DNA from: Microbacterium hominis NBRC 15708
GTDB lineage: Bacteria; Actinomycetota; Actinomycetes; Actinomycetales; Microbacteriaceae
Reading direction: 5' to 3'
Assembly: GCF_001592125.1 (NCBI RefSeq)
Contig: NZ_BCWI01000007.1
Coordinates: 62,001-126,000 of the forward strand
DNA: 64,000 bases
A model generated the notes under the pieces. It had not been told where the DNA came from. It searched no databases and saw only the letters and a list, made by a program, of their open reading frames with translations. Position numbers and translations under genes: made by a program. Shown here piece after piece: positions 20,718 to 34,860 of the stretch. The stretch's first letter is position 1. Every line of letters starts with the position of its first letter.

Positions 20718-20793
20718 GGGCCTATGGCGCAGTTGGTAGCGCGCCTCGTTCGCATCGAGGAGGTCAGGAGTTCGAATCTCCTTAGGTCCACCA
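20718..20793 (+). tRNA. tRNA-Ala (anticodon CGC)
   Basis: This is a complete 76-nt cloverleaf. Acceptor 20718-20724 pairs with 20783-20789 (one G-U pair). The D-stem GCGC is at 20727-20730/20739-20742. The anticodon stem CCTCG/CGAGG encloses loop TTCGCAT with anticodon CGC at 20751-20753. The T-arm AGGAG-TTCGAAT-CTCCT is at 20766-20782, the discriminator is A, and CCA is encoded at 20791-20793. It reads GCG alanine codons. Its 3' end is part of the left attachment repeat of the adjacent integrated element. Confidence 0.97.
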
Positions 20794-20831
20794 CATCGGT
20801 CGCTTTGGAACAAGTGAAGTTGTAAGAGCCA
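20788..20831. repeat. Left attachment-site repeat (attL-like)
   Basis: This 44-bp sequence starts in the last bases of the tRNA-Ala gene. It matches 34262-34305 at 40 of 44 positions, and the first 22 bp are identical. The two copies are direct repeats 13.47 kb apart and bound the recombinase pseudogene and the defence-type cargo. The sequence also encodes the end of the recombinase reading frame on the minus strand (...SKATDVV). Confidence 0.8.
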
Positions 20832-20834
20832 TCC

Positions 20835-20872
20835 GCAAACGGCGCTTCTCCTTCCGGAGAGGCGCCGTTTGC
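20835..20872. other. Hairpin next to the left attachment repeat
   Basis: The outer arms GCAAACGGCGC (20835-20845) and GCGCCGTTTGC (20862-20872) are perfectly complementary. Inner TCTCC/GGAGA pairs extend the stem around a short loop. It lies within the open frame of the recombinase C-terminus, so it is either a coding-embedded terminator or part of the recombination site. A similar hairpin stands beside the right repeat (34313-34342). Confidence 0.6.
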
Positions 20873-22449
20873 CGTTTCGGACACGGTGACGATGCTCGCG
20901 AACGGTTCGGCCAGAACCCACTCGGCGGTCTCGTCGCGGGTGATGAGGATTCTCTTGAAGAAGGCCTGACTGTATGTGCGGCGAAGCGCGTCCGGCGCGC
21001 GCCGGTAGGCCTCGTAACAGTTCACGGCGAGAGCGATCGCGTCGTTCAGGGTCTGCTCAAGCACTTCGAACTCGGTCTTGAGGGCGTTGAGCCGGTCGCT
21101 GACGACGGTCATCTCACGGTTCACTCGTTCTTGTTCCTCCCGGTACAGCTGGCCCGGAATCGTGCCATGGAGGTGGCCATCGAGCAGCTTTCTACTTCGC
21201 CCCATGAGGTTGGTCTGCTGGGTCAGGAGCACCTGTTGCGTGCGTTTCGTCTCGGCCGCACCAGCCTCCACGGCGGCCTTCAAACGAGACCTTGTTATGG
21301 CTGCACCCTCGGGCGTGAGCGCGACCAGCTGGTACAGGTTCTCGACCTGCCGCTCGACGCCGTGGATGTTGATGGCGGACATGGTGCAGTTCGTGCGCTT
21401 CTGGTGGCGCCCGATGCAGACGAAGTATGGGTACACCACGCCGGCAGCGTTCTTGGAGTAGTGGATGATGAGTCGGCTCTCGCAGAGGCCGCAGAACAGC
21501 GAGCTTTAGAGGTAGTGGTTGTGCACTCGTGCCTTCTCACCGGTCAGGCGCGACGCGAACACTTCCTGGCACTTCTGCCATGTGCTCTGGTCAACGAGAG
21601 GCGTGTGTCGTCCGGGATAGCTCGTGTTCTGAAACGTAACGATGCCCAGGTAATACGGGTTGTTCAGGATCTTGTAGAGCTGGCTCGCTGTCAGCGGCCG
21701 CGCGGCTCGTTTGGGCGTCGGCGGAGTGGTGAGTCCGCGCGCGGTTAGCTCGTCGAGGAGCCGGTTGATGGTGTATTTGCCGGTTGCAAACGCCTCGAAT
21801 GCCCAGCCGATCTGTGGGGCGCGAGCGTCGTCGAGCACGACGGTCCGAACCTCACGACCCTCGTCGTTTACAGCAGCGCGGTTGCGATAGCCGATCGGTG
21901 TTCGTCCGGGCGTGCCTCCGGTCTTGGCTTTTTGGCTCATGCCCTTCACGACCTCGTTGGCAAGATTGCGCGAGTAGAACTCTGCGATCGAACTCATGAT
22001 GCCGTGAAGCAGCATCCCCGACCGGGGTGAGCGATTGCGCGAGCGAACGTTCATACCGCCCGTCAAGCCGCGCGGGTTACGAGCGATGGCTGAACTTGTC
22101 CATGGCCTTGCTCCGGCGTCGGGCCTTGCTGAGGACAACCAGTGGTCGCTCCGGTTCACGGAGCGAGTCCTCGAGCGGCATGCTCGAGCAGACGAGTTGC
22201 CCCTGAGAAAACTGCCCGTGCGCCACGGGCGCGGGAATGTCACCAGTATCAACGCGGCGAGGCGAGAGCGGGGGAGCCGTCGGTCAGTCTGAGAGGCGGC
22301 TGGCTGCGGGCCTGCTCTCGGTACGACGGGCATCGCTAGCCGCGGACCGCAGGTCAACTCGTGCGGTCCACTGGAACGTGCTTGGGCCTTGGAACTCGCG
22401 CCGCGCGGAAGTCCGAGTCTACGGCGCGGGGCTTGGGTAGCGTGGGGGT

Positions 22450-25400
22450 GTGACCTCGATACCTGCCCGCGAAGTGTTGATCGGCCAGCTCATCAAACGC
22501 GATCCGGTTCGCACGGAAGCGGACATCCAGGCTGACATCTATGGGCTGCTGACTGTCGGCGACCTGAACATTGGTGTTGATCAAGCGCACATGGAGGCTC
22601 CCTCCGCGGACGGCACTCGGCGTCGTATTGATGTCGAGGTCGGGCAAGTAGCGATCGAGGTCAAGAAGGATCTGCGCAACCAGACGGTGCGGGCTGATGG
22701 TGAGTCTCAGCTGGAGGGGTATATCTCGACACGAACCGAACAGACAGGCGCGCACTATTCCGGTGTCCTCACCGACGGCGTTCTCTGGCTGCTGTTCAAT
22801 GTCGGATCCGAGGGGCGTCGACTCGTGGCCGAACTGGACATGACGGGAAAGGAACCGTCTGTCCTCGTGGGATGGCTCGAATCTGTCCTGTCGACGCAGA
22901 CGCAGGTGAAGCCGACCCCAAGCGAGATCGTGCGGCGACTTGGAGCTAACTCCCCCGCTCACATGGTCGATGTCGCCGCATTCCGAGACCTGTATCAAGC
23001 GAATGCAGGTAACACGGAGGTCGCGCTCAAGCGTGAACTGTGGGCCAAGCTCCTTCGCACCGCTTTCGGGTCCGCGTTCGAAGACGACGAGACCCTCTTC
23101 ATCAATCACACTCTGCTCGTTCTCACTGCAGAGATCATCGCTCACGCCGCCCTGGGGTTCGATGTGAGCGCTACGGGCGGGATCAGCGCCAAGCAGCTCA
23201 GCCTTGGCACTGAGTTCTCGAACGCACAAATCGTCGGTGTCGTTCAAGCGGACTTCTTTGACTGGCTCCTCGACGTTGACGGCGGCGAGGAGCTCATCGC
23301 GAATGTCGCCCGACGGATAGCTCAGTTCAACTGGGCTCATGTCGAGCACGACGTGCTGAAGCTCCTCTACGAATCGGTGATCGACACACGTGACCGAAAG
23401 GCGCTGGGCGAGTACTACACGCCCGACTGGCTGGCTCAAGCCATCGTTGACGCGAACGTAGATGAGCCTCTGACTCAACGCGTTGCGGACGTGGCGTGCG
23501 GCTCGGGCACCTTCCTGTTCCACGCCATTCGCCGGTATCTCGCCGCAGCGGAGCAAGCCGGCATGTCGAACGGCGACGCGATCAGCGGGGTGACGTCGCA
23601 TGTGACCGGTATGGACGTCCATCCAGTGGCGGTCACCATCGCCCGCGTAACATACCTGCTCGCCATCGGCGTGGAACGGCTCACCGCCGACGACCGTGGG
23701 CCGCTCGTTGTACCTGTCTACCTTGGCGACTCCCTGCAATGGGAGCAGCAGACGGACATCTTCGCGTCAGAAGAGCAGCTCACCATAGCAACATCAGGTG
23801 CCGACCTTGTGGAGGCTGGTGCGGCGCTCTTCCACGACGATCTCGTCTTCCCGAAGTCGGTCCTGCAGGACGCGGCGAACTTCGATCGGCTCGTCAACGC
23901 GATGTCAGACAAGGCGTCGGACACAAGCAATCGGACCAGCAAGACGGTGATCTCGCCGACACTACGGCAGTTCGGCATCCCCGAGCGGGACATGGATGTC
24001 CTCGTCGCCACCTACGACACCATGCGCAGACTGCATGCCGATGGACGCGACAGCATCTGGGGCTACTACGTCCGAAATCTCGCTCGTCCCACGTGGCTGT
24101 CCGCGGACGACAATAAGGTCGACGTCCTCGTCGGCAATCCGCCCTGGCTTCGGTACGGGGCGATGACCGGCCCGATGCAGACGCGCTTCACCGCCATGCT
24201 TAAAGCTCGCGGCCTTATCACCGGCAGAGCCGGCGCGACGGGCAGGGACCTCGCTCCGTTGTTCGTTGTGCGGGCTACGGAGCTATACCTTCGGGCAGGC
24301 GGCAGGTTCGCCATGATCGTTCCCCACGGCATTCTCACCCGCCAACCCCACGCTGAGTTCCGGTCGGGGCGCTGGGGGAGCACGATTCTCGACCTGCGCG
24401 TGCAGTTTGAGCGCGCGTGGGATCTTCAGCATGCTGCCACCGGGTTCCCCAACCACGCAGCCGTCGTCGTCGGCAACCGCGGAACGACCTCCAAGGCGAT
24501 GACCGCAGAGGTGGAATCATGGTCGACGAAGGGCGCAAAGTCCAACGTCACCTGGGATGAGATGCTCCCGCGTTTAACACGAGATGTGACCACGGTCGGG
24601 GTGACAAGCGAAGAAGACGCAGCAGTCACTTTTTCGATCTATCGGAAGAGATTCCGTCAGGGGGCGGTGCTCGCTCCTCGAATGCTGACGTTCGTCGAGG
24701 AGGGAAAGTCGAGCCCGCTAGGAGCTGGCGCTGGGCGTGTTCACGTCGTCTCCCGGAAGACGAACCAGGACAAGCCGCCGTGGAAGTCCCTGCCGGCGAT
24801 CTCAGACGTAGTCGAGAAGACGTTTGTCCGCCCTGTCCATCTCGGTGAGACCACACTTCCGTTCCGGACGACGGCGCCACTCAAGGCAGTGCTGCCGATC
24901 TCACCGAAGACCGGGAAGCTTCTCACATCCGGCGAGATCGCGGAGCATGAAGGCCTCTCGCGTTGGTGGTCTGCCGCCGAAGAGATATGGGCTGAGAACA
25001 AATCGGCGAACGACCCGGGCGCTTTCCTCGATCGAATCGACTACATCGGGCAGCTTAGCGCCCAGCTTCCTGCTGCGAGCCAACGCGTGGTGTATACAAA
25101 GGCGGGAAACTCGATCGCCGCCGCACGAGTTGCGGACCCCGACGCGGTCATTGACCACATGTTGTACTGGGCGGCCACAAGCTCGGTGGACGAAGCGCGG
25201 TACCTGGTTGGCATACTCAACTCGGCGGCCGTGCTTGAGAGAGTCAAACCGTTCATGGCCGTCGGCCTTTTCGGCCCGCGACACTTCGATAAGAATGTCT
25301 TCCGGGCGCTCATAATGCCCTACGATCCGACGGACACCTCGCACCTCGCGCTGGCAAAAGCAGTCGGTAGCGCTGAGGGCGTAGCAAGTGCGGTCGATGT

Positions 25401-25539
25401 CTCCAGTGCTAAGACGTTTCAGGCGGCCCGAAAACTGGTACGGTCCGAACTTGAGCGTCAGGAGATACTTCGTGAAATTGAGGATCTCGTTCTGAAAGTA
25501 GTTCCCGAGGCCCGTGCCAACTCATCATCGCTTGTGTAG
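22450..25539 (+). CDS. N6-adenine DNA methyltransferase with N-terminal nuclease-like domain (type IIG/Eco57I-like)
   Basis: The product is 1029 residues. The first 110 residues contain a PD-(D/E)XK-like core (RRIDVEVGQVAIEVKKDL: Asp61, Glu70, Lys72), as in HsdR-type N-domains. A methyltransferase follows, with GEYYTPDWLA at 320-329, SAM motif I VADVACGSGTFLF (345-357), and catalytic NPPW at 563-566, typical of gamma-class N6-adenine enzymes. The C-terminal 350 residues probably hold the target-recognition part. It would methylate, and perhaps also cut, a specific DNA site. It faces a PLD-fold nuclease gene 54 bp away. Codons use A/T at third positions more than the flanking core genes. Confidence 0.85.
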   Translation: MTSIPAREVLIGQLIKRDPVRTEADIQADIYGLLTVGDLNIGVDQAHMEAPSADGTRRRIDVEVGQVAIEVKKDLRNQTVRADGESQLEGYISTRTEQTGAHYSGVLTDGVLWLLFNVGSEGRRLVAELDMTGKEPSVLVGWLESVLSTQTQVKPTPSEIVRRLGANSPAHMVDVAAFRDLYQANAGNTEVALKRELWAKLLRTAFGSAFEDDETLFINHTLLVLTAEIIAHAALGFDVSATGGISAKQLSLGTEFSNAQIVGVVQADFFDWLLDVDGGEELIANVARRIAQFNWAHVEHDVLKLLYESVIDTRDRKALGEYYTPDWLAQAIVDANVDEPLTQRVADVACGSGTFLFHAIRRYLAAAEQAGMSNGDAISGVTSHVTGMDVHPVAVTIARVTYLLAIGVERLTADDRGPLVVPVYLGDSLQWEQQTDIFASEEQLTIATSGADLVEAGAALFHDDLVFPKSVLQDAANFDRLVNAMSDKASDTSNRTSKTVISPTLRQFGIPERDMDVLVATYDTMRRLHADGRDSIWGYYVRNLARPTWLSADDNKVDVLVGNPPWLRYGAMTGPMQTRFTAMLKARGLITGRAGATGRDLAPLFVVRATELYLRAGGRFAMIVPHGILTRQPHAEFRSGRWGSTILDLRVQFERAWDLQHAATGFPNHAAVVVGNRGTTSKAMTAEVESWSTKGAKSNVTWDEMLPRLTRDVTTVGVTSEEDAAVTFSIYRKRFRQGAVLAPRMLTFVEEGKSSPLGAGAGRVHVVSRKTNQDKPPWKSLPAISDVVEKTFVRPVHLGETTLPFRTTAPLKAVLPISPKTGKLLTSGEIAEHEGLSRWWSAAEEIWAENKSANDPGAFLDRIDYIGQLSAQLPAASQRVVYTKAGNSIAAARVADPDAVIDHMLYWAATSSVDEARYLVGILNSAAVLERVKPFMAVGLFGPRHFDKNVFRALIMPYDPTDTSHLALAKAVGSAEGVASAVDVSSAKTFQAARKLVRSELERQEILREIEDLVLKVVPEARANSSSLV

Positions 25540-25593
25540 TTGGGACCTAACCAGCAATTATTCGCACGTGATCTGCCGGTGCTCGGTTGCGGG

Positions 25594-26739
25594 CTAGAAA
25601 ATTAGTCCGTACCTTCTCCCGGAGGCTATCGTCAGGTCGATTGAGTTGACGGCGGCGCTTTTTAAATCGCGAATTGCTCTTTCGTCTGTCGCATCTAGCT
25701 CGAACCTATCTGCGGCCTCGTAATCCGATGCCAGGCGAGTGAAGAGCAGATACGAGTGATCGTACGAGTCAAGACCGTTCTGCTCTGGGATTGGAAGGTT
25801 GATCTTATCCATCTCGTTATTGCCGAAGCGCACTGATCGTTCCACGAATTGTGTGCCGGGTCGTCGCACTCGCATCTGGACCTTCCCGAAATTGTGGTTC
25901 TTGGGCACACGCGTGGATTCGAACCCGAAAAAGACGCGAGTACCTCTTGGGGTGTCTAGCTGGTTCCCCGGCTTTTTCGGCCCGCGGTTCTTCGGTATGG
26001 CGCCGGCATCAATCCAGAGGTGTCTCGCGTTAGCAAGCTGAATCGTCAGCGAGCTCGACACGTCCGGACCCGCCGTAGGCTTGAGGTACTGTCTTACGGC
26101 GGGGGTACGTTCCTCTGGCGGTTTCCGGGGCCGCGGCTTCCCGCGGTAGGCGTCACGGTACGCATCGCGGATATCGCACCAAGGTACAGAAGTCGCCCAC
26201 GCGTCATCGAACCAGGCAATGGTGTCCCTCAATGTCTGGAGCTGGCGCCGCTCTGATCGTGAGGGACGGCTCGACCAAGACTGTCCAACGACAATCTCTG
26301 ATCCGGTCGCGAGCGCACTGGCGGTGAGGTTGGCTGAGCCCATCACTGACGCGCAAGACTCGCTCCACGACGCGCCTCGGAAGATGAATGCTTTGGCATG
26401 GAAGGTCGCCCGGGGTAACAGACTCGGAGACGCTAGAACCTGAGACGCATTGGGTATCCGGACTTCGGAGTTGGACAGCTGCGCGATCCGGTCCAATGCC
26501 TGGGGCTGAGTGATCCCGAAGTCGATGCTGACCAAGAATCTTTTCGAGGCGCGGTCCCATCGTGGGTTGGTGAGCCTGTCTTCCAGCAGTCGAACTCCGG
26601 CCGTGCTCGCGTAGGCGACCGCGACATCGACCAATGTGTAATCGTCCGCAGCTGAGGCGGCACGCGTCAGCGCTCTCAGTACAGCCTCAACTCGCCCGCT
26701 CGAGACATCTTGCGCGTGTATTGCGGCGTGGTATCCCAC
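25594..26739 (-). CDS. Phospholipase-D-fold nuclease, NgoFVII/BfiI-like restriction endonuclease
   Basis: The product is 381 residues. The PLD catalytic motif is seen once: His114-x-Lys116 in FHAKAFIF and GSAN at 134-137 followed by Glu148, the pattern of metal-independent PLD-family nucleases that dimerise to form one active site. The C-terminal half (about 220-360) lacks PLD motifs and may be the DNA-recognition domain, as in BfiI- and NgoFVII-type enzymes. It is convergent with the adenine methyltransferase gene, so the two plausibly form one restriction-modification pair. An effector nuclease of another system is the alternative. Confidence 0.72.
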   Translation of the reverse strand: MGYHAAIHAQDVSSGRVEAVLRALTRAASAADDYTLVDVAVAYASTAGVRLLEDRLTNPRWDRASKRFLVSIDFGITQPQALDRIAQLSNSEVRIPNASQVLASPSLLPRATFHAKAFIFRGASWSESCASVMGSANLTASALATGSEIVVGQSWSSRPSRSERRQLQTLRDTIAWFDDAWATSVPWCDIRDAYRDAYRGKPRPRKPPEERTPAVRQYLKPTAGPDVSSSLTIQLANARHLWIDAGAIPKNRGPKKPGNQLDTPRGTRVFFGFESTRVPKNHNFGKVQMRVRRPGTQFVERSVRFGNNEMDKINLPIPEQNGLDSYDHSYLLFTRLASDYEAADRFELDATDERAIRDLKSAAVNSIDLTIASGRRYGLIF

Positions 26740-27001
26740 CCGACCCCCGCTCTCTGGCTTGACGTGATGCTTGAACGCACCCGGTGCTCGGGCCTAGCTT
26801 TTCAGCCCCGGGCTCCGTGCGCCTACGAGTGATGCCCGGCGTGTCGCGCTTATCTCACGTCGCGCCTACAGTTCATCAGACATGCCCTGCTCAAGAAGGG
26901 GTGTCGGTCCAATTCCGGAGCATCCAAGCGGATGAGTCAGGCGGTTCTGTGTCCCGCTTGCGAGGGGGATCCCGGCCACCGGTTCACAGTAGATTGTCGG
27001 A

Positions 27002-27940
27002 GTGAGCGTTGCGAAGTATCACCACATCAACCCGCAGTTCGTACTTCGCGGCTTCGCGGACGAAGACGAGCGAATCAGGACCATCCGTCTACCGCAACGG
27101 AAGGGCCGCACCTCGCTGGTTGAGAAGACAGGCGGCGAGAACCACCTGAACTCGATACCTGGCCATCCGAGTGGCTCCGATGTGTTTGAGAAGCGACTGG
27201 GCGAGGGCATCGAGTCCGAGACCGCGCTCCTGTTCGAACGCGTTGACGGGGGTGAGTGGCCGCTGCCTGAGCCCGACCGCGACACTCTCGCGGAGTTCAT
27301 CGCACTGCAGATGCTGCGCGGACCTGAGCGGCGCCGGCAGATGGAGTCGCTCGCGGGAGAGCTGTTCTCCAGAGCGGCAGGTCAATTGGGGCGAGCGAAG
27401 TTCGGGGAGATGGTGTCGGATGTTGCCGGGCGCGCGCTCAGTGAGGCAGACGTCGAAGCGCTTTGGTCTACCGTCACTGAACCCGGCGGCTTCCGGTTGC
27501 CGCAGACCGCTCGTGAGCACATCGAATTGATGAGCGAGGCCACCGGCGACATCGCTGGGTTCCTTGCGTATCGGCCGTGGACATTGGTGCGGTTCACGGA
27601 CCGCGCGCTCATCACCAGCGATGCTCCAGTATCGTTGGTCCCTCACGAGCAGCCCGGTGCGTGGATGGGTGTTGGGGTGAGGGATGCTCGGCTTGTGCTG
27701 TATCCCATGACTCGGAGAATCGGTCTTGTCATGCGGAACCCGTTCGACGGCCGCTATCCAACCAATGACCTTGGCGCGCTCACTGATAACACGCGCTCGG
27801 GTCTTCTTGACGATCGCTCATTCGGAACTGCGGAGATCGAGAAGAAGATTAACGCGTGCACCGCTGCCTACGCAGTGAGTAACATTTATCATCACCTCGA
27901 GGACTCGCAGTTTGTCCCGTCCAATTTTCGGGAGAAGTAG
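27002..27940 (+). CDS. DUF4238 domain protein
   Basis: The 312-residue protein opens KYHHINPQFVLRGFADED, the His-rich HxxPQFxLRxFA signature of DUF4238. It has the family's later LITSDAPVSLVPH-type segment, as TDRALITSDAPVSLVP. Function is not established for the family; its genes are common in mobile and defence-rich regions. The start is GTG 27002. It is isolated on the plus strand between two minus-strand units, with 262 bp upstream free of genes. It could be an independent defence or toxin gene; no catalytic motif can be claimed. Confidence 0.78.
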   Translation: MSVAKYHHINPQFVLRGFADEDERIRTIRLPQRKGRTSLVEKTGGENHLNSIPGHPSGSDVFEKRLGEGIESETALLFERVDGGEWPLPEPDRDTLAEFIALQMLRGPERRRQMESLAGELFSRAAGQLGRAKFGEMVSDVAGRALSEADVEALWSTVTEPGGFRLPQTAREHIELMSEATGDIAGFLAYRPWTLVRFTDRALITSDAPVSLVPHEQPGAWMGVGVRDARLVLYPMTRRIGLVMRNPFDGRYPTNDLGALTDNTRSGLLDDRSFGTAEIEKKINACTAAYAVSNIYHHLEDSQFVPSNFREK

Positions 27941-28131
27941 GACGGTCTCGCGCCTGCGGTTGCGCAAGAGCTTCACCGGCGACCGAGTCCCTTGGCCCGC
28001 TGCCACCGGACGCCACGGAGCCGGCAAAAAATCCCCCAGCGAGCCCGCTCACATCCATTTGCGTCTCGAGCACGTGACGCCGCGTGAGTTTACCCGATGA
28101 GTTTGCTAGCGCAGCCGGACCGGGGATCCGC

Positions 28132-29817
28132 CTAGTCGCTAGGACGGGTTGCAACGATTCGCCACACCAGCCACCACACATAAAAGGGGTACGGAGAGCG
28201 CTCTTCTTCGTCGGGAATCTGGCCATGAGCTACGCGATGGCGAAGATTGGGACCGCCCACACCGCCGAAGAGAGCGCGAAGCTCGAAAGCCAACGAGGCC
28301 CCGAATGCTTGTCCGAGCTTCTCGGATTTGAGAAGCGAAGGCAGGCTGGTCTCGTCTTCCACTCCGTCGGCGTAGCGGCTGGTTCGATCTTCGATGGCCT
28401 TCAGCTGTTCGCGGACGAGGTGCTCGGTTTGCGGGATCAGGAGCTGGAAGGCGGTGAAGAAGTCGCCGGTGAACCCGTAGAACAGTGCTGTTCCGACCGA
28501 TATCGTCCTGTCTTTGGGAGTCCTGTCGCTCTGGGAGGCGATGTCGACGAAGTCCGAGTGGGACCAGTGCTGTGTTTCGTGGAGGTGTCGCCAGACCGGG
28601 TGCAGAAGCTGGGGGACGATGGTGTGGACGCGAAATTCGTGGCTGCGCATCATCAGATGCCATACAGGGGAGGGGACCCCGAAGACCTGTTTCTTCGTGT
28701 CGCCGGTGGCTGCGCTCACCCGGCCGTCCTTTTCGATGGTCCGGCGGGGCGTGTCGGTGAGAAGGGCGAAGTTCTTGCGGGTGTTCTCCGCGACTGCGAG
28801 CTCTGCTGCGTATTCCGGGAGGTCTATGAGGCGAAGGAAAATCGCGCGGGCGTTTTCGTCTTTAGCGTTGGTGATCTGAGAGAGCGCATGTTCCCGCGCG
28901 GTGCTGAGGTCGGGGAGCGGCGTGCTTCTACGAGTGCTGCGGGACACGATGCTCTTCCCGGCGCCGCGGATGTCGGCGGTGAGTTCATTGCCGAGGTCTT
29001 CGAGACCCCGGGCGGTGCGGGCTTGGATTGAGGTCCGTAGGTAGTTTCTGTGTGCACGGTCGAGAAGTTCCGACGCGTAGAAAGCGCTGTCGACACGATA
29101 ATCGGCGATGTGCCCTCGTGCATCCTCCTGGAGCGTCAATGCAAGATCGAGCAGCAGGTCGTCCGATCGAACGCGATCACCTGCGATGGCGGCCCATTCT
29201 GCTGCCTCCTCAAGCTCGAGGGCTGACCGGCTGTTTTGTGCGGTGAATGAGAACTGGCCGGCTAGCCGTTTGGCATGGCGGTGGGTGCGTTTGTCCTCAC
29301 GTAAGCGTCGACTGAATGAGATGTAGTGCAGATCCGGTAAGGGAGCGAATATGAGCTCTACCACCCGGTCCTCAATCCGCTCCACGACGGCGCGATGCGC
29401 CGGACCAAAGCCACCCAGCTCCAGGGCGCGGCTCAGAAGGTCCATGTCGCACGGGTTGAAGTCCGAGCCCGCTATAGCTTCTCGCAGGCTCTCGAGCATG
29501 GTCAGCGTTGCGTCGGCTCGTGCGCGATCGGAGCTCCGCAGCGCGATCAGATCCAAGCAGCGGACCTGGAGTCGCCAACTGTCGGTCATGTCGGCGAGGT
29601 TGACGACGATCCGCATATCGTCTTCGCTGAGATCTGCCGGGCCGATATCGCCGGGGAACCACGGCTTGTATGGCACCGAACGATCAGCGGCGTCGAAGAG
29701 GTAGTCGCCCACCGAGGCGGCAATCTCTTTCGCGCGCTGGGCATCGGTGTCATGAGGGCTCACGTCCGACGCCAGTGCTCGCTTGACGGCGCCGCGCCAC
29801 TGCGCATCATTGGTCAT
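28132..29817 (-). CDS. DUF4209-like protein with C-terminal RX4H (HEPN-type) motif
   Basis: This 561-residue protein is mostly alpha-helical in character (many Leu/Ala/Glu heptad-like stretches). The C-terminal 90 residues contain LIPQTEHLVREQLKAIEDR and NLRHRVAHGQIPDEE with Arg526-x4-His531, followed by an aromatic YPFYVWWLVWRI. This layout matches DUF4209, and the RX4H motif is the catalytic signature of HEPN ribonucleases. I infer an RNA-cleaving or abortive-infection effector with a long helical sensor part. It lies 267 bp downstream of the GHKL-nuclease gene on the same strand, so it may belong to that operon or have its own promoter. Confidence 0.65.
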   Translation of the reverse strand: MTNDAQWRGAVKRALASDVSPHDTDAQRAKEIAASVGDYLFDAADRSVPYKPWFPGDIGPADLSEDDMRIVVNLADMTDSWRLQVRCLDLIALRSSDRARADATLTMLESLREAIAGSDFNPCDMDLLSRALELGGFGPAHRAVVERIEDRVVELIFAPLPDLHYISFSRRLREDKRTHRHAKRLAGQFSFTAQNSRSALELEEAAEWAAIAGDRVRSDDLLLDLALTLQEDARGHIADYRVDSAFYASELLDRAHRNYLRTSIQARTARGLEDLGNELTADIRGAGKSIVSRSTRRSTPLPDLSTAREHALSQITNAKDENARAIFLRLIDLPEYAAELAVAENTRKNFALLTDTPRRTIEKDGRVSAATGDTKKQVFGVPSPVWHLMMRSHEFRVHTIVPQLLHPVWRHLHETQHWSHSDFVDIASQSDRTPKDRTISVGTALFYGFTGDFFTAFQLLIPQTEHLVREQLKAIEDRTSRYADGVEDETSLPSLLKSEKLGQAFGASLAFELRALFGGVGGPNLRHRVAHGQIPDEEERSPYPFYVWWLVWRIVATRPSD

Positions 29818-30084
29818 GCGGTGAGAGTAGCGCCAAGATCACAAGGCACGCGGACACGGGCATCCGCATGGCCTTGCTGCCAGAGTCGATCGCGTCGCGG
29901 TCCATCCTGTTCCGCAGACAGGACTCGCAGACGTTCCCTGAGATGAAGGGCCGGACGGTTCGGAGAGATTGTTTGCCGGTCGAGGAGACCGCAGTGCTTG
30001 CTGCCCGTCGCGATAACGAGTTACGAAGTGCGCGGTCGAGTCCTGGCCATCGTTTTCAAGAAGGCGGGTCAAGCTCGGTCGACG

Positions 30085-32109
30085 TCAAATCTTCCCATCG
30101 CGCTCGCGCTCATCAAATAGCACGTCCGTCGCGGTGGGGAGGTCGACAGACGGGAAGAGCTCGCTGTGGCGCTTACGAAGCGTGTCCAGGCTCGTCTCGG
30201 TCGTCGGATCATAGGCGAGTTTGTCGCGCACGAACTTTAGGCGGTGACGGGCGTTCTGGATGATTTGTGCCCACGTCACCGCATGAATCGTGACGTGGTG
30301 CTGGAGCTCTTCGTAATCCTCGACAACGTCAGGAGGCAGATTTCCTTGTCCTAGCTTGTGGCGGATCTTGTCGCTGATCTCGTCGCCGACGATCCAGAAC
30401 TCCCACTTGGTGTTCACTGATGCAAACCGAGCGTCGTTGGCGACCGCGAGAGCGTAGGCCTCGATTTGATCGAGCTGTTCTTTCCCGATCGAGACGCTGG
30501 GGCGCTTCAGTTCGATGACGAGGTGCTCGCGATGGTCGCGCTGCTGTTCGATTGCCCCGCTCAACATGAGGTCAATGATCACGACTCGACCCTCGGCGTC
30601 GACGACTGGCTCCTCCAGGTCCTCCGGGGTGAGACCTTCGCGCCCAAGCAACTCGACGTGTGACTTCAGTGCGGTCTTGAGCGCGTTGTCGTTGGCAGTG
30701 AGTGCGTACTCTTCACGGAAGATCCAGGTGTTGCGAGCGACGAGCTTGTGAAGCTGAGATCGCTCCTTGGTGTGCTTCTTCAGCTCCGGATCGTTGACGA
30801 TTTCCTCGAGTGCGGTGAGGAACTCCAGCCGCCCGACGATCTCTTCGCTAGCTTTAACGAGGGACTCGAGGGAGGTCTTCTTCAGCAGCTCGCTGAACGA
30901 CTCGACTTGCTCGGCCGGAAGCTTCAGCACCTCTTCGAGGATGTGCCGAACGTGGGATGGGCTCGTCTCAACAGCGTTCTTGAGAAGTTCAAGCGATAGC
31001 CGCCGGGCCGCCTGATCGGTCTTCGCGATGACCGGCCCTGCCGCGGCAGCTGCGATGTCGAATATTCCGCGCACCGCGACGTCCTTCTGACTCCGGGGCG
31101 CTTCCTTGAACGGGTAACTACCCTCGTCCTGCCATGCCTTGAGATACTTGCCTGAGCGCTCCTGGTCGGCCTCCGCGAAATGTTCGCGCAGTTGCTGCTG
31201 GGCCGCCGCGATGATCGAACGAATTGGCTCCGGCGCCTGATCCTCGAGTGAGAGCATGTCTGCCTCGGCGACGAACCCTTGCCATTTCACGTAGGCCGTG
31301 AACGCGTGACCGGGAGCCTGGATGCCGGCCTTCATCTGATGCACCATAATGCCGCTGCCGTCGCACAGGTTGAGGTGGCGGGGGAGTTCGCGCTTCCACT
31401 CGACGATCGTCAGGGTTATGGACTCGTCGACACCATCCACGACGAGCGGGTAGTCCTGTTGCGCTTGCTTCAGCACCTCGACGTCGAGCCGCTGGTCACC
31501 CCAGAACAGGTCGATCCCATACTGCTCGATCTGCAATGCGAACGTGCTCAGGAGGTCATCGATGACGGCGTCGGACTGGAGGTACTTGCCGCCGTGAGCT
31601 GTGACGTTGAACACGTCGACTGTGCAACCAGTGGCTTCGCCGTCAGCGTGTGCGGGATCCGACACCCGGAAATCCTCGAGCGCAGTCTTGTTCGCGGTGA
31701 TGCTGAATCGCACTCGACCGTCAGCAACGCTGTCCGCCGTCGACGTCCAGCGCACGTCTTGTCCGATACCCAGTGCAGCCCATCGACCGCGGCCGTTCTC
31801 GCCGTGGATTGCGCGGCCAGCTTCCGACACCTTGTTCATACGCTTTGACGAGAGGCCGAGGGTGCCGAACGTCTGCTTCAAGTTGTCGGGTGCGATACCC
31901 GTGCCGTCATCGACAACCGTGAGGCGGTCGACGCTTCCCAGGGCGTTTACGTCGACTCGGCATCGGATCGTCTTTGCGTCCGCATCGACGGAGTTCCAGA
32001 TGATCTCTGCCAGCGCAGTTTTCGGGGAGGCGGCGAGCGATGCGAGGTGCGCCTTGTCGAGCACGACGTGGAGGTTCTCCATAGCGAGCAAGTTTGGCAT
32101 GAGGGCCAT
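30085..32109 (-). CDS. GHKL (Hsp90/MutL-type) ATPase fused to a Shedu-like PD-(D/E)XK nuclease
   Basis: The product is 674 residues. The N-terminal Bergerat ATP-binding fold is clear: N-box AEIIWNSVDADA (Glu35, Asn39), G1 box VVDDGTGIAPDN (67-76), G2 loop GENGRGRWAALGIG (103-116). A linker rich in helices follows. Residues 450-600 resemble the Shedu (DUF4263) nuclease: NTWIFREEYAL, then Asp513, Glu533-x-Lys535 in HLVIELKRP and QLDQIEAYA, i.e. a PD-(D/E)XK core. It probably binds ATP and cuts nucleic acid on a trigger. It follows the zinc-ribbon gene by 128 bp and precedes the DUF4209-like gene. Confidence 0.8.
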   Translation of the reverse strand: MALMPNLLAMENLHVVLDKAHLASLAASPKTALAEIIWNSVDADAKTIRCRVDVNALGSVDRLTVVDDGTGIAPDNLKQTFGTLGLSSKRMNKVSEAGRAIHGENGRGRWAALGIGQDVRWTSTADSVADGRVRFSITANKTALEDFRVSDPAHADGEATGCTVDVFNVTAHGGKYLQSDAVIDDLLSTFALQIEQYGIDLFWGDQRLDVEVLKQAQQDYPLVVDGVDESITLTIVEWKRELPRHLNLCDGSGIMVHQMKAGIQAPGHAFTAYVKWQGFVAEADMLSLEDQAPEPIRSIIAAAQQQLREHFAEADQERSGKYLKAWQDEGSYPFKEAPRSQKDVAVRGIFDIAAAAAGPVIAKTDQAARRLSLELLKNAVETSPSHVRHILEEVLKLPAEQVESFSELLKKTSLESLVKASEEIVGRLEFLTALEEIVNDPELKKHTKERSQLHKLVARNTWIFREEYALTANDNALKTALKSHVELLGREGLTPEDLEEPVVDAEGRVVIIDLMLSGAIEQQRDHREHLVIELKRPSVSIGKEQLDQIEAYALAVANDARFASVNTKWEFWIVGDEISDKIRHKLGQGNLPPDVVEDYEELQHHVTIHAVTWAQIIQNARHRLKFVRDKLAYDPTTETSLDTLRKRHSELFPSVDLPTATDVLFDERERDGKI

Positions 32110-32237
32110 TCTCGAGTTCAGACTTGTTGGGCAGCAGCGTTTAGAACTCCGGTCCTGCCACCGACTCCTGCACCGCGAACGTACGCGATGCCGCCGACAT
32201 CACCGCTCAGACCTACGACTGCCCCTCAGCATGACGG

Positions 32238-33149
32238 TCAGTCGTTACCGTAGTCATAGTCATCCGGCTCGTACTCGCGCTCGACTGTGAAGGTCGTGGG
32301 CACATCCGCCTGCTCGAGGAACTCCACTCGGTCCAGAGCTAGATGGCAGTTCGGGCAGCCGAAGTAGATTGCATACACGCTGAGATTCTCGGTCGGAGAG
32401 GCAAATCCGTCTTCAGGATCTGGGTAGTCGATGACGACATCGCCGTAGTCTTCCCCTTCGAGTGAACCCTCGTCGCCGCAGACTGGGCACGCTGTCGTCG
32501 AGATGTACGTGAGTCCCGCGGATGGGTCGAAGGGCTTGGTGAGCTCGTCTCGGAGCGCTGCAGGCGTTCCCGGGTTGTCCCGCTGGTCGAGCCTCTGCCG
32601 GGCACGCTCTAGGAGCGCTGCGACGTGCTCCTGAACGTGATCCTTGTGCTGAGCCAAGTAGTCCTCGACTCGCGTGAGGAGGGAGCCGCCGACGAGGCTG
32701 TGCAGGTCTTTGTCGGTCGCCACGACAAGAATGCTCGCCTGGTTCCAGAGCTTCCCCCACCACACATCCTCGGGGTGCAGAGACCGTCCGCTGCCGCCAC
32801 CATGCAAGTACTCGTTCCGGGACGAGCTGAACTGAGCCGCCTCCTTCCCGGAAAACGGACGAAACGTCTTCTCCGCACGAGCCCACAGGGCCTTCGCCTG
32901 AATCGTCTGAATGTCAGCGCCGTCGTGCGCGATCACCCCGAGCGTGGCGAGGATGTGCTTTCCGTCCGCATCAGGCGGGATGATTAGCAGCGGCGAGATG
33001 TGCGCGAGCGCAGCCTTCGCCAGGAACTCCAAAGCGGTCGTCGCCCAAAGCGAACGCTCGTCGAAGTCGCGGATCGTTTCATCACTCAACGAGCGGCGGG
33101 CGAAGATCTGTGCCTTCGCCCACAGGTCATCGAACGTAGGAATTGCCAC
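32238..33149 (-). CDS. HEPN-like protein with zinc ribbon
   Basis: The 303-residue protein begins helical (1-200) and contains FSSSRNEYLHGGG with Arg111-x4-His116, the RX4H signature of HEPN domains. A zinc-ribbon-like pair of CxxC motifs follows (CPVCG at 221-225, CPNCH at 265-269), and then an acidic tail. I do not know a named family with this layout. A nuclease toxin or RNA-binding sensor is the inference. The GTG start overlaps the stop of the dioxygenase gene by one base (TAGTG), so the two are translationally coupled. Confidence 0.65.
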   Translation of the reverse strand: MAIPTFDDLWAKAQIFARRSLSDETIRDFDERSLWATTALEFLAKAALAHISPLLIIPPDADGKHILATLGVIAHDGADIQTIQAKALWARAEKTFRPFSGKEAAQFSSSRNEYLHGGGSGRSLHPEDVWWGKLWNQASILVVATDKDLHSLVGGSLLTRVEDYLAQHKDHVQEHVAALLERARQRLDQRDNPGTPAALRDELTKPFDPSAGLTYISTTACPVCGDEGSLEGEDYGDVVIDYPDPEDGFASPTENLSVYAIYFGCPNCHLALDRVEFLEQADVPTTFTVEREYEPDDYDYGND

Positions 33150-33781
33150 TAGCTGTCCAATCCGGTGATCAAGGCGACACGGTGAACCCGCCGAGTTGGA
33201 GCATCCGCGGCTGAGGCTCGCGCATGTAGAACCCGGCGATTGGCGATCACTAGGACGGTACCGGGCTCCGTCCAGTGGTGCGGGTGAGCGGAGTCCCTCA
33301 ACGCGGTGAACTCCGAGGCCGCCTGTCGGGAATCGTCATCCATCGGCGTCATGCAGCCCGGGTCGTAACGCCAGCGCCCGCTCCCGTCGACAGCAGGTGC
33401 GTAGAACCCAGAACGGCCGTCACCCACCTTGAACACGCCGACCCGTTGCGCGTCTGTGGGTTCGCCAGGATCGCAGATCAGTGTCGGCGTTGACGACGGC
33501 TCGGCGGCAGTAAGCAGGACAATATCCGGCATCGCTCGATGATGTGCACCGTCCGTGTGTAACGGCTGCGGGCCGGCGCCGAACTTTGCGCTGAGCGATT
33601 GCGGGTGCGCGTTGCCAGAATCGAGGACCTGCAAGGTGCTGAGAGCGGGCTCCCCGCGACGTATCGGAACCGGGCGCCATCCCAACTGTTGGGCTTGCTG
33701 CAGAAACTCTCGAATGTCAGCCTGGCGCGTGGCCCATCCGTTTCGAATCGCCTCGCCAGCGGCTCGCTGCAGGGTTGTCAT
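33149..33781 (-). CDS. Fe(II)/2-oxoglutarate-dependent dioxygenase, TauD/clavaminate-synthase-like
   Basis: The product is 210 residues, shorter than the roughly 300 of metabolic TauD enzymes. The iron triad is visible: His75-x-Asp77 in PLHTDGAHH and His186 in ANRRVLHAR. A following RRVHR supplies the Arg that would bind 2-oxoglutarate. Members hydroxylate small molecules, proteins or nucleic acids; the substrate here is unknown. As the first gene of a defence-like operon, coupled to a HEPN-like gene, it could modify a nucleotide, protein or phage molecule, which is inference. A peptide or amino-acid hydroxylase is the main alternative. Confidence 0.75.
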   Translation of the reverse strand: MTTLQRAAGEAIRNGWATRQADIREFLQQAQQLGWRPVPIRRGEPALSTLQVLDSGNAHPQSLSAKFGAGPQPLHTDGAHHRAMPDIVLLTAAEPSSTPTLICDPGEPTDAQRVGVFKVGDGRSGFYAPAVDGSGRWRYDPGCMTPMDDDSRQAASEFTALRDSAHPHHWTEPGTVLVIANRRVLHARASAADAPTRRVHRVALITGLDS

Positions 33782-33821
33782 CGCCCCGAGTCTTGCACAC
33801 GGAGTGCCCTTGACAGAGCGC

Positions 33822-34424
33822 TCATGGAGTGCGGGCGGCGGACGGGTTAGGGGAAGGCTCAGCGGGACGATTTCGAATCATCCTCTTGATCGTCGCTGGG
33901 TCCCGTCTCAGCTGCCGTGCGATCTCCGCATACGTTGCACCGGCCAAGTACATCTCATGCGCCCTTGCTCGCTCGGCCTCCGTGATGGTCCGTCGCATCA
34001 CGACGCCGGCAGCGGTCAGGTGTTGGGCGACGGTGTAGCGGTGCAGCCCATGCTTGCGGCCGACCTCGTAGATGCCGAGCCCTGATTGGTAGTCCGCCAC
34101 GAGCTGCTCGCGGACAGCTGGAGTAACCTGCTTCATCTGTCGCGCCCCCGCTGGGACCTGGCGGATGAGTCCACGCAAAACCTGGGCAATCTCACCCTTG
34201 TGAAGCGCGGCTCGTAGCGCCAACAACGGCCGCGAGTTAATCGAAAGGGCTTCCGCTGGGGCCACCACATCGGTCGCTTTGGACCAAGTGACCTCGTAAG
34301 AGCCACTTGATAGCGGCGTGTCTCCCCGAGGAGATGCGCCGCTCTTGGTTTTCGCAGTGGTTCCAATGAGTGCGACGGCATCGTCGAGGTTCTGCTCACA
34401 GCAGCCGTGGCTCGGTTCACTCAT
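33822..34424 (-). CDS. HTH DNA-binding protein fused in frame to a recombinase C-terminal tail
   Basis: The open frame is 200 codons. Codons 1-54 (to 34263) resemble the end of a serine recombinase (SGASPRGDTPLSSGSYEVTWSKATDVV), parallel to the tail of the recombinase at the left edge. Codons 55-200 are a separate protein: RPLLALRAALHKGEI, then two HTH units (PAVREQLVADYQSGLGIYEVGRKHGLHRYTVAQHL and RARAHEMYLAGATYAEIARQLRRDPATIKRMIRN), as in proteins that accompany recombinases in actinobacteria. The join coincides with the right attachment repeat, so this gene was created or altered by integration. The real start of the HTH part is uncertain (first internal ATG at MKQVTP). Confidence 0.6.
   Translation of the reverse strand: MSEPSHGCCEQNLDDAVALIGTTAKTKSGASPRGDTPLSSGSYEVTWSKATDVVAPAEALSINSRPLLALRAALHKGEIAQVLRGLIRQVPAGARQMKQVTPAVREQLVADYQSGLGIYEVGRKHGLHRYTVAQHLTAAGVVMRRTITEAERARAHEMYLAGATYAEIARQLRRDPATIKRMIRNRPAEPSPNPSAARTP
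34262..34305. repeat. Right attachment-site repeat (attR-like)
   Basis: This is a direct repeat of 20788-20831 (40/44 identical; 22 identical bases first). It marks the right edge of the integrated element. Unlike the left copy it is not preceded by a tRNA. It sits inside an open frame joining a recombinase tail to an HTH gene. Confidence 0.78.
34313..34342. other. Hairpin next to the right attachment repeat
   Basis: Arms GCGGCG and CGCCGC (34313-34318, 34337-34342), with an inner TCTCC/GGAGA pair. The layout is the same as the hairpin at 20835-20872 although the bases differ, which suggests the hairpin is a conserved part of this att-adjacent region. Confidence 0.5.
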
Positions 34425-34505
34425 CCCCGAGAACCTCTACGGACGGCTCAGCCTCAGCGCCGCCATGGGGCACCGTCGGTGGCGGTGTCAGTGCTGCACT
34501 GACGG

Positions 34506-34742
34506 GTGGAGTTCGGCTCCCTGCACCCTCAGAAGGAAGGCCGGTATTGCCATGACGGCGACGAAGAATGGTCCTCGATTTCCAGCTCTGACGGTCGAGT
34601 TTCGTGGCGTTTCGATTCTCGTCGGGACTATCCCCGTCGTGGCGCTCACGGGCAGGGCGAAGTCATCGCGCTCACTCCGCAGGCGCTTCTCCTCTTGGAC
34701 GAGACAGGGAGAGCGCTAATGCGGCGACGGCTGCCGTCGTGA
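34506..34742 (+). CDS. Hypothetical small protein, possibly a gene remnant
   Basis: The 78 codons include a plausible globular C-terminus (GQGEVIALTPQALLLLDETGRALMRRRLPS) but an odd N-terminus. A second, overlapping frame (from ATG 34552) also reads reasonably at its beginning, so a frameshifted remnant is possible. It ends inside a strong hairpin, which supports real transcription to this point. It is the only candidate gene in the 436 bp between the element and the SDR gene. I do not recognise it. Confidence 0.3.
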   Translation: MEFGSLHPQKEGRYCHDGDEEWSSISSSDGRVSWRFDSRRDYPRRGAHGQGEVIALTPQALLLLDETGRALMRRRLPS

Positions 34743-34756
34743 CCGACGGCAGCCGT
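34727..34756. terminator. Strong 12-bp hairpin
   Basis: ACGGCTGCCGTC (34727-34738), a 6-nt loop, and its perfect complement (34745-34756). It overlaps the end of the small plus-strand frame. It is probably a transcription terminator and also insulates the minus-strand SDR operon end about 100 bp away. Confidence 0.55.
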
Positions 34757-34860
34757 GCAGCGCGCGGCACGGGTGGTGGTTCGGCGCGAGCCATTTCCGG
34801 TCGCTCGTCCCAGCCCCGGCGCGATCGCCTCAGAGCTCTCGGCTCCGAGTATGGGCATCG

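Follow-up and report, generated by a model that had tools for sequence, protein, structure and literature searches.

The minus-strand open reading frame at 30085-32109 of the window, the whole stretch of 64,000 nucleotides of Microbacterium hominis DNA analysed here, encodes a candidate GHKL ATPase/PD-(D/E)XK nuclease, designated P0001. The preferred reading, to which a probability of about 0.8 is assigned, is that P0001 is a stand-alone ATP-gated DNA endonuclease of the paraMORC3 type, which is directed against phages (or mobile elements) and probably works like VcSduA of Vibrio cholerae. P0001 is ordinary in kind; its architecture has already been described. The novelty implied by an earlier note on this DNA did not hold, since the same architecture is present in paraMORC3 (PMC2292703), in the BbrUII/HgiDII enzymes covered by the NCBIfam model NF050001 and in VcSduA (PMC12137116). 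The terms "clade" and "sister" for the relatives of P0001 are based on profile and identity comparisons.

The open reading frame comprises 674 codons and is a real gene, as seen from the frame, its translation and its intact homologues; it lies where the earlier note had placed it, and its strand is the minus strand. Translation may begin not at 32109 but nine codons later, at codon 10 (32082), because the closest homologues (L002, L003, L065 and L085) have an ATG at this position. A clear ribosome-binding site was identified for neither of the two starts.

The GHKL (Bergerat) ATPase domain was assigned to residues 10-200 (31510-32082; this and all other features of the gene are on the minus strand), based on the Pfam model HATPase_c_3, which matches residues 28-128 at 5.9e-19, and on fold matches to MORC3, TRAP1 and Hsp90. 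The N-box, G1 and G2 motifs were identified where the earlier note had located them. The N-box spans residues 35-45 (31975-32007) with E35, N39 and D42, the G1 box residues 67-71 (31897-31911) with D67, G69 and G71, and the G2 box residues 102-109 (31783-31806) with the pattern H102-G103xxG106xG108-R109. E35, N39, D42, D67, G69, G71, G103, G106, G108 and R109 are each present in 95 of the 95 rows of the family alignment, which includes near-duplicates, and G161 is present in 94 of them.

An AlphaFold2 model of P0001 built with 77 sequences (mean pLDDT 88.2, pTM 0.63) consists of GHKL and S5 domains, a helical linker and a nuclease domain. For the N-terminal part, the best fold match is MORC3 (Z 19.5, 279 residues aligned, rmsd 3.7), followed by TRAP1, MORC4, Hsp90 and MORC2. 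Because these top matches align to residues 16-318, the N-terminal half of P0001 is, as modelled, a GHKL+S5 module. The matched MORC3 chain presumably contains the S5 domain. In P0001, the S5/transducer-like domain is predicted at residues ~201-290 (31240-31509) from the strands of the model and from the way residues 16-318 align to the ATPase cassette of MORC3. The GHKL+S5 module is thus like the one of the MORC, MutL and Hsp90 ATPases, whereas the C-terminal parts differ. P0001 reached 28.0 bits against a cut-off of 180 and 28.8 bits against a cut-off of 750 with the NCBIfam MutL models.

The predicted helical linker at residues 296-447 (30769-31224), taken from the secondary structure of the model, is followed by the predicted PD-(D/E)XK nuclease domain at residues 449-631 (30217-30765). 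In Pfam, the C-terminus has only a sub-threshold match to HSDR_N_2 (0.025, residues 523-556), a model which also touches 18 of 19 members of the P0001 family. The nuclease quartet is formed by E449 (30763-30765), which is the first acidic residue of the putative active site and was missed by the earlier note, D513 (30571-30573), and E533 and K535 of the E533-L-K535 motif (30505-30513). All four residues are invariant in the 95 rows. The last three had been named in the earlier note, as had the WIFREEY segment at residues 462-468 (30706-30726), in which W462 is present in 95 and F464 in 94 of the 95 rows; Q548 is present in 94 rows. The WIFREEY segment aligns to a PWIL/PWII-like segment of Shedu and BbrUII-type proteins.

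When residues 440-660 were modelled alone, a pLDDT of 84.5 and a pTM of 0.82 were obtained. Residues 449-631 are predicted to adopt a restriction-endonuclease fold, and residues 500-600, for which the earlier note had made this fold the decisive check, lie within it. With VIA-align, the C-terminal model matched EndoMS/NucS best (Z 9.4, 112 residues aligned), followed by AF1548 (9.2) and a Pyrococcus repair endonuclease (9.1), and further down by Upx (8.0), R.BspD6I (7.8) and FokI (7.7). Many of the matched structures are known PD-(D/E)XK nucleases. E. coli SduA was matched with a Z of 7.7 over 140 residues and Bacillus cereus Shedu with 7.4, where a Z below 8 is weak when standing alone. The nuclease domain of P0001 resembles the solved SduA folds, but the score is not above those of other nuclease folds, and EndoMS/NucS scores higher. 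Foldseek gave no match of the C-terminal model at E up to 0.001, the best being MspJI at 3.7e-3, and when the C-terminal profile was run against the sequences of solved structures, a designed repeat protein at 0.024 was the only match. The clear fold matches of the C-terminus come from VIA-align alone, and absence of a family from the VIA-align or Foldseek lists was not counted against it. Together, HATPase_c_3, the predicted folds and the invariant residues bear out the claim of the earlier note that a Bergerat-fold ATPase and a PD-(D/E)XK nuclease are joined in one chain.

The same note had called the nuclease Shedu-like, and here the outcome is divided. The Pfam model SduA_C (DUF4263) matched none of 19 P0001-family members at E up to 1 with the HMMER filters on, and the PADLOC SduA model matched one of the 19, at 0.02. 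The HMM search proposed in the note was thus positive for the HATPase model and negative for DUF4263, and because of the latter result P0001 was not classed as Shedu. In the phylum, SduA_C matches were identified in 7 of 198 genomes, one of them being a GHKL fusion (L151). At the profile level the likeness stood: in hhalign, which was run here on small alignments and gives pairwise E-values only, the C-terminal domain of the P0001 family reached 93.2% with a score of 54.0 over 133 columns against five Shedu proteins that lack GHKL; the highest score among ten column shuffles was 21.1 (at most 1.4%), and the reversed profile scored 14.8. These five proteins are frames of 403-439 amino acids, judged from their length and the search rows to be without the GHKL part that P0001 contains.

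The same domain gave 97.6% and a score of 86.9 against the C-termini of eight BbrUII/HgiDII-type GHKL-nuclease proteins, and 23.8% and a score of 29.0 against twelve NucS proteins (reversed profile 15.1; five shuffles at most 1.1%), a set which is less varied and cut shorter, so that its score may be lowered. Among the families tried, the order of the profile scores is BbrUII-type, Shedu and NucS. By profile, BbrUII and Shedu are nearer to the P0001 nuclease than NucS is, whereas the fold comparison ranks NucS first; this order is regarded as support, not proof. For the Pfam model NucS_C, P0001 was not among the matches, and one of the 19 members matched at E 0.26.

The NucS likeness bears on a possible role of P0001 in the host, as a one-chain MutL-EndoMS analogue which would nick mismatched or distorted DNA. 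The MutL/MORC-like N-terminal half, the best fold match of the nuclease and the NucS profile result above its controls are consistent with such a repair enzyme, and the sister BbrUII-type nuclease domain reaches 81.7% with NucS by hhalign. A repair role was also raised for members outside restriction systems by Iyer et al. in 2008, who noted that the endonuclease module of MutL has a different fold (PMC2292703). However, the host has its own NucS, the profile likeness to Shedu is the stronger one, and P0001 is located on an island and is intact in only 7 of 299 genomes of the family, which makes a repair enzyme very improbable.

The preferred reading places P0001 with paraMORC3, which was defined in 2008 by Iyer, Abhiman and Aravind as proteins with GHKL and S5 domains and a C-terminal restriction-endonuclease fold with an E-D-ExK signature; the genes are described as partly stand-alone and laterally mobile, and MORCs and paraMORCs were proposed to loop DNA between recognition and cleavage sites (PMC2292703). 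P0001 has each of these published features, namely the GHKL domain with its ATP motifs, S5 and the C-terminal E-D-ExK fold. It differs in its origin, since paraMORC3 is described in the same text as prevalent in Proteobacteria and Bacteroidetes and the copy studied here is actinobacterial.

For VcSduA of V. cholerae, described in 2025, it is reported that this single gene, coding for a GHKL and a PD-(D/E)XK domain, protects against phages, and that the exchanges E27A in the ATPase and K557A in the nuclease each abolish protection (PMC12137116). The dimer was modelled as entwined, with a clamp-like middle domain, and VcSduA was related by its authors to paraMORC3 and, citing Gu et al. 2025, to Shedu type I-D (PMC12137116). 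The spacing between the ATPase Glu and the nuclease Lys is 530 residues in VcSduA and 500 in P0001; in the 95 rows of the P0001 family a motif search gave 497-528, with one of 455, and the spacing of VcSduA fits both the P0001 and the BbrUII-type clade. VcSduA is reported to carry DUF4263 (PMC12137116), whereas the P0001 family is without a Pfam SduA_C match. In the literature searched, including the portions used of PMC8011034 and PMC9519451, nothing specific to the P0001 clade was found; the study of Gu et al. 2025 on Shedu diversity lies outside this coverage.

Abortive infection is a common mode of action of nuclease effectors that are encoded by a single gene and carry a sensor domain. 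P0001 could be such an effector, in which a phage product would trigger ATP-driven closure followed by indiscriminate cutting of DNA that kills the cell. With VcSduA, however, cultures were protected at every multiplicity of infection tested, which its authors read as direct restriction preserving host viability (PMC12137116), and abortive infection is accordingly given very little credence for P0001.

The P0001 gene is part of a probable genomic island of ~14 kb at 20718-34860, located at a tRNA-Ala and carrying several defence candidates. The left edge is formed by the tRNA-Ala(cgc) gene at 20718-20793 on the plus strand (ARAGORN), followed at 21506-22357 on the minus strand by a gene for a serine recombinase (Pfam Recombinase, 2.5e-12), which is apparently N-terminally incomplete; its Resolvase match covers only profile positions 106-144 of 145. 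The GC content is 60-63% at 22-34 kb, compared with 70-75% to the left and 67-69% over the next 10 kb to the right. The edges were searched in the DNA of 39 genomes of the genus, including the own genome, with few candidates scored per genome. Among the matches listed, those of the left flank mostly end at ~20795-20800 (one at 20893), those of the right flank restart at ~34480 and are strongest from 34860, and inside the island only the recombinase region at ~21390-22030 was matched outside the own genome. No convincing direct repeats bounding the island were identified.

Between the recombinase and P0001, the island encodes a type IIG-like restriction-modification protein at 22450-25539 on the plus strand (PADLOC 7.2e-68; Pfam N6_Mtase and Eco57I), a protein at 25594-26739 on the minus strand with a weak Pfam match to PLD and weak type IV restriction-like PADLOC matches, a DUF4238 protein at 27002-27940 on the plus strand (PADLOC DUF4238-Pers, 1.1e-8), and the phage-defence candidate PDC-S39 at 28132-29817 on the minus strand (PADLOC 3.7e-89; C-terminal Pfam DUF4209). 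Directly upstream of the P0001 gene and on the same minus strand, 32238-33149 codes for a 303-amino-acid protein whose C-terminal third contains paired Cys motifs, for which no Pfam match at 0.01 was obtained and which had no match in 80 homologue loci. P0001 itself is matched weakly by a PADLOC type II enzyme model (0.00025, residues 29-153 only), and the PADLOC 2023 and NCBIfam models reach no further than its ATPase region.

In the family of M. hominis, the P0001 homologues are patchy and decaying. An intact full-length copy is present in 7 of 299 genomes, the own one included and counting one (G264) for which the search flags a stop although none interrupts the frame within the aligned part; in four genomes the copies are broken or fragmentary. 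Identity to P0001 is 28-60% for the other six intact copies, and relatives of ~60% identity were identified in Agromyces and Cryobacterium. A contig scan with the single P0001 sequence gave no matches, whereas the alignment-based scan gave 451 relatives among 465 candidate stretches, which may include proteins sharing the ATPase domain only. The best 80 of the 451, as species-level loci, were used further; 76 of them have no in-frame stop in the match, and by record title they belong to Actinomycetota, Pseudomonadota, Acidobacteriota, Planctomycetota, Chloroflexota, a cyanobacterium and others. By tblastn, homologues were also identified in 50 plasmid records, in 33 of them with a coverage of 80% or more at a single place, and in the records of two Pasteurella phages, Pmp14 and Pmp3. 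The homologue of Pmp14 (L062, 5968-7926) is located amid the tail genes of the phage.

A partner gene constant across the homologue loci examined was not found. When nine neighbouring genes of the window were searched by tblastn in the 80 loci, the single match was an oxidoreductase in L110, corresponding to the gene on the right side of the island. When the neighbours in 76 loci were clustered, the largest recurrent sets were type I restriction-like genes, seen in 8-10 loci, and a small gene, seen in 6; five or six of the loci in each set are from Streptomyces. The label "type I restriction-like" was read from the sequences. In L083, L084, L086, L089, L094 and L115, such genes and the small gene, which we take to resemble a YgjP-type metallopeptidase, are located upstream of the homologue.

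For a scan with Pfam and PADLOC, 145 near and 141 far genes (of 144 in the far set) were taken from naive open reading frame calls in 37 of the 76 loci, leaving out loci with short flanks, near-duplicates, most of Streptomyces and proteins of more than 1200 amino acids. Among the families listed, the commonest Pfam family accounts for four of the 145 near genes. Gabija- and MmeI-like genes were identified near the homologues and type I methyltransferases among the far neighbours, and near and far sets showed no sharp contrast in defence content. Ten annotated homologue records also differ in their neighbours, with conjugation genes, a type ISP enzyme, an LlaMI-type system with Drt2, or prophage tail genes. 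Their methyltransferases are of different types or none is listed, the gene tables of the plasmids being incomplete.

The closest relatives among the profiles tried, the BbrUII/HgiDII enzymes, are related to P0001 along the chain and differ by an adjoining cytosine-5 methyltransferase. L151 and seven plasmid proteins match NF050001 along their length, five of the eight above the cut-off, and the gene for the C5 methyltransferase adjoins the BbrUII-type gene in six of seven annotated records. SduA_C was matched by two of these eight proteins, both below the Pfam cut-off when scanned singly. In a whole-protein profile comparison, the P0001 family and the eight BbrUII-type proteins were aligned over 541 columns at 99.9%; both families have the GHKL, S5, linker and nuclease parts in common. 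A BbrUII-type GHKL protein with a C5 methyltransferase was also identified on haloarchaeal plasmids (L155, and H50 by its listing).

This relationship, together with the matches of 16 of 19 P0001-family members to NF050001 at E up to 0.1 (best 1.4e-21), raises a further reading, in which P0001 would cut fixed sites like a type II enzyme in the manner of BbrUII/HgiDII, with the host protected by a methyltransferase. The latter could be an unlinked one or perhaps the type IIG-like enzyme of the same island, 4.5 kb away, which is however encoded on the opposite strand. P0001 itself obtained only 43.3 bits with NF050001, over residues 31-134, against a cut-off of 550, and the six neighbouring genes scanned with Pfam contained N6_Mtase/Eco57I and no C5 methyltransferase. 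With the methyltransferases of the ten annotated loci being as inconsistent as described, fixed-site restriction is considered unlikely, although less so than repair or abortive infection.

For the preferred anti-phage endonuclease, the following course of events is proposed. Binding of ATP would bring the N-terminal GHKL/S5 halves of a P0001 dimer together as a closed clamp that surrounds or adjoins DNA. Through the helical linker, the closure would be relayed to the PD-(D/E)XK domains paired at the C-terminus, which would then cut the captured DNA with E449, D513, E533 and K535 in a metal-dependent manner. We infer dimerisation, clamp closure, coupling and the use of a metal, as well as the DNA feature recognised. 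ATP-gated dimerisation as the trigger, as suggested by the earlier note, may thus apply to P0001; control of the nuclease by the GHKL domain, which is close to this suggestion, was already hypothesised for VcSduA (PMC12137116). Because of the lack of a constant methyltransferase, recognition of DNA ends, of a structure or of a foreign modification seems more likely than that of a protected fixed site.

To go one step further, the P0001 clade might represent a separate branch of one-chain GHKL-nucleases, neither paired with a methyltransferase like BbrUII nor a recognised Shedu, which would tell foreign from own DNA without a modification partner, for instance through a MORC-like closing clamp that senses the ends or the topology of DNA. 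This is a tentative view, and it is held to be possible rather than probable. To our knowledge, no activity is known for the P0001 clade.

P0001 connects three names which have been used for one architecture, namely paraMORC3, the BbrUII/HgiDII restriction enzymes and the GHKL-type Shedu proteins, and it adds a widespread clade that the PADLOC 2023 models miss at full length. If active, P0001 would be a simple single-gene system for how the ATP-driven closure of a GHKL module licenses the cutting of DNA, a question which also bears on the MutL and MORC proteins.
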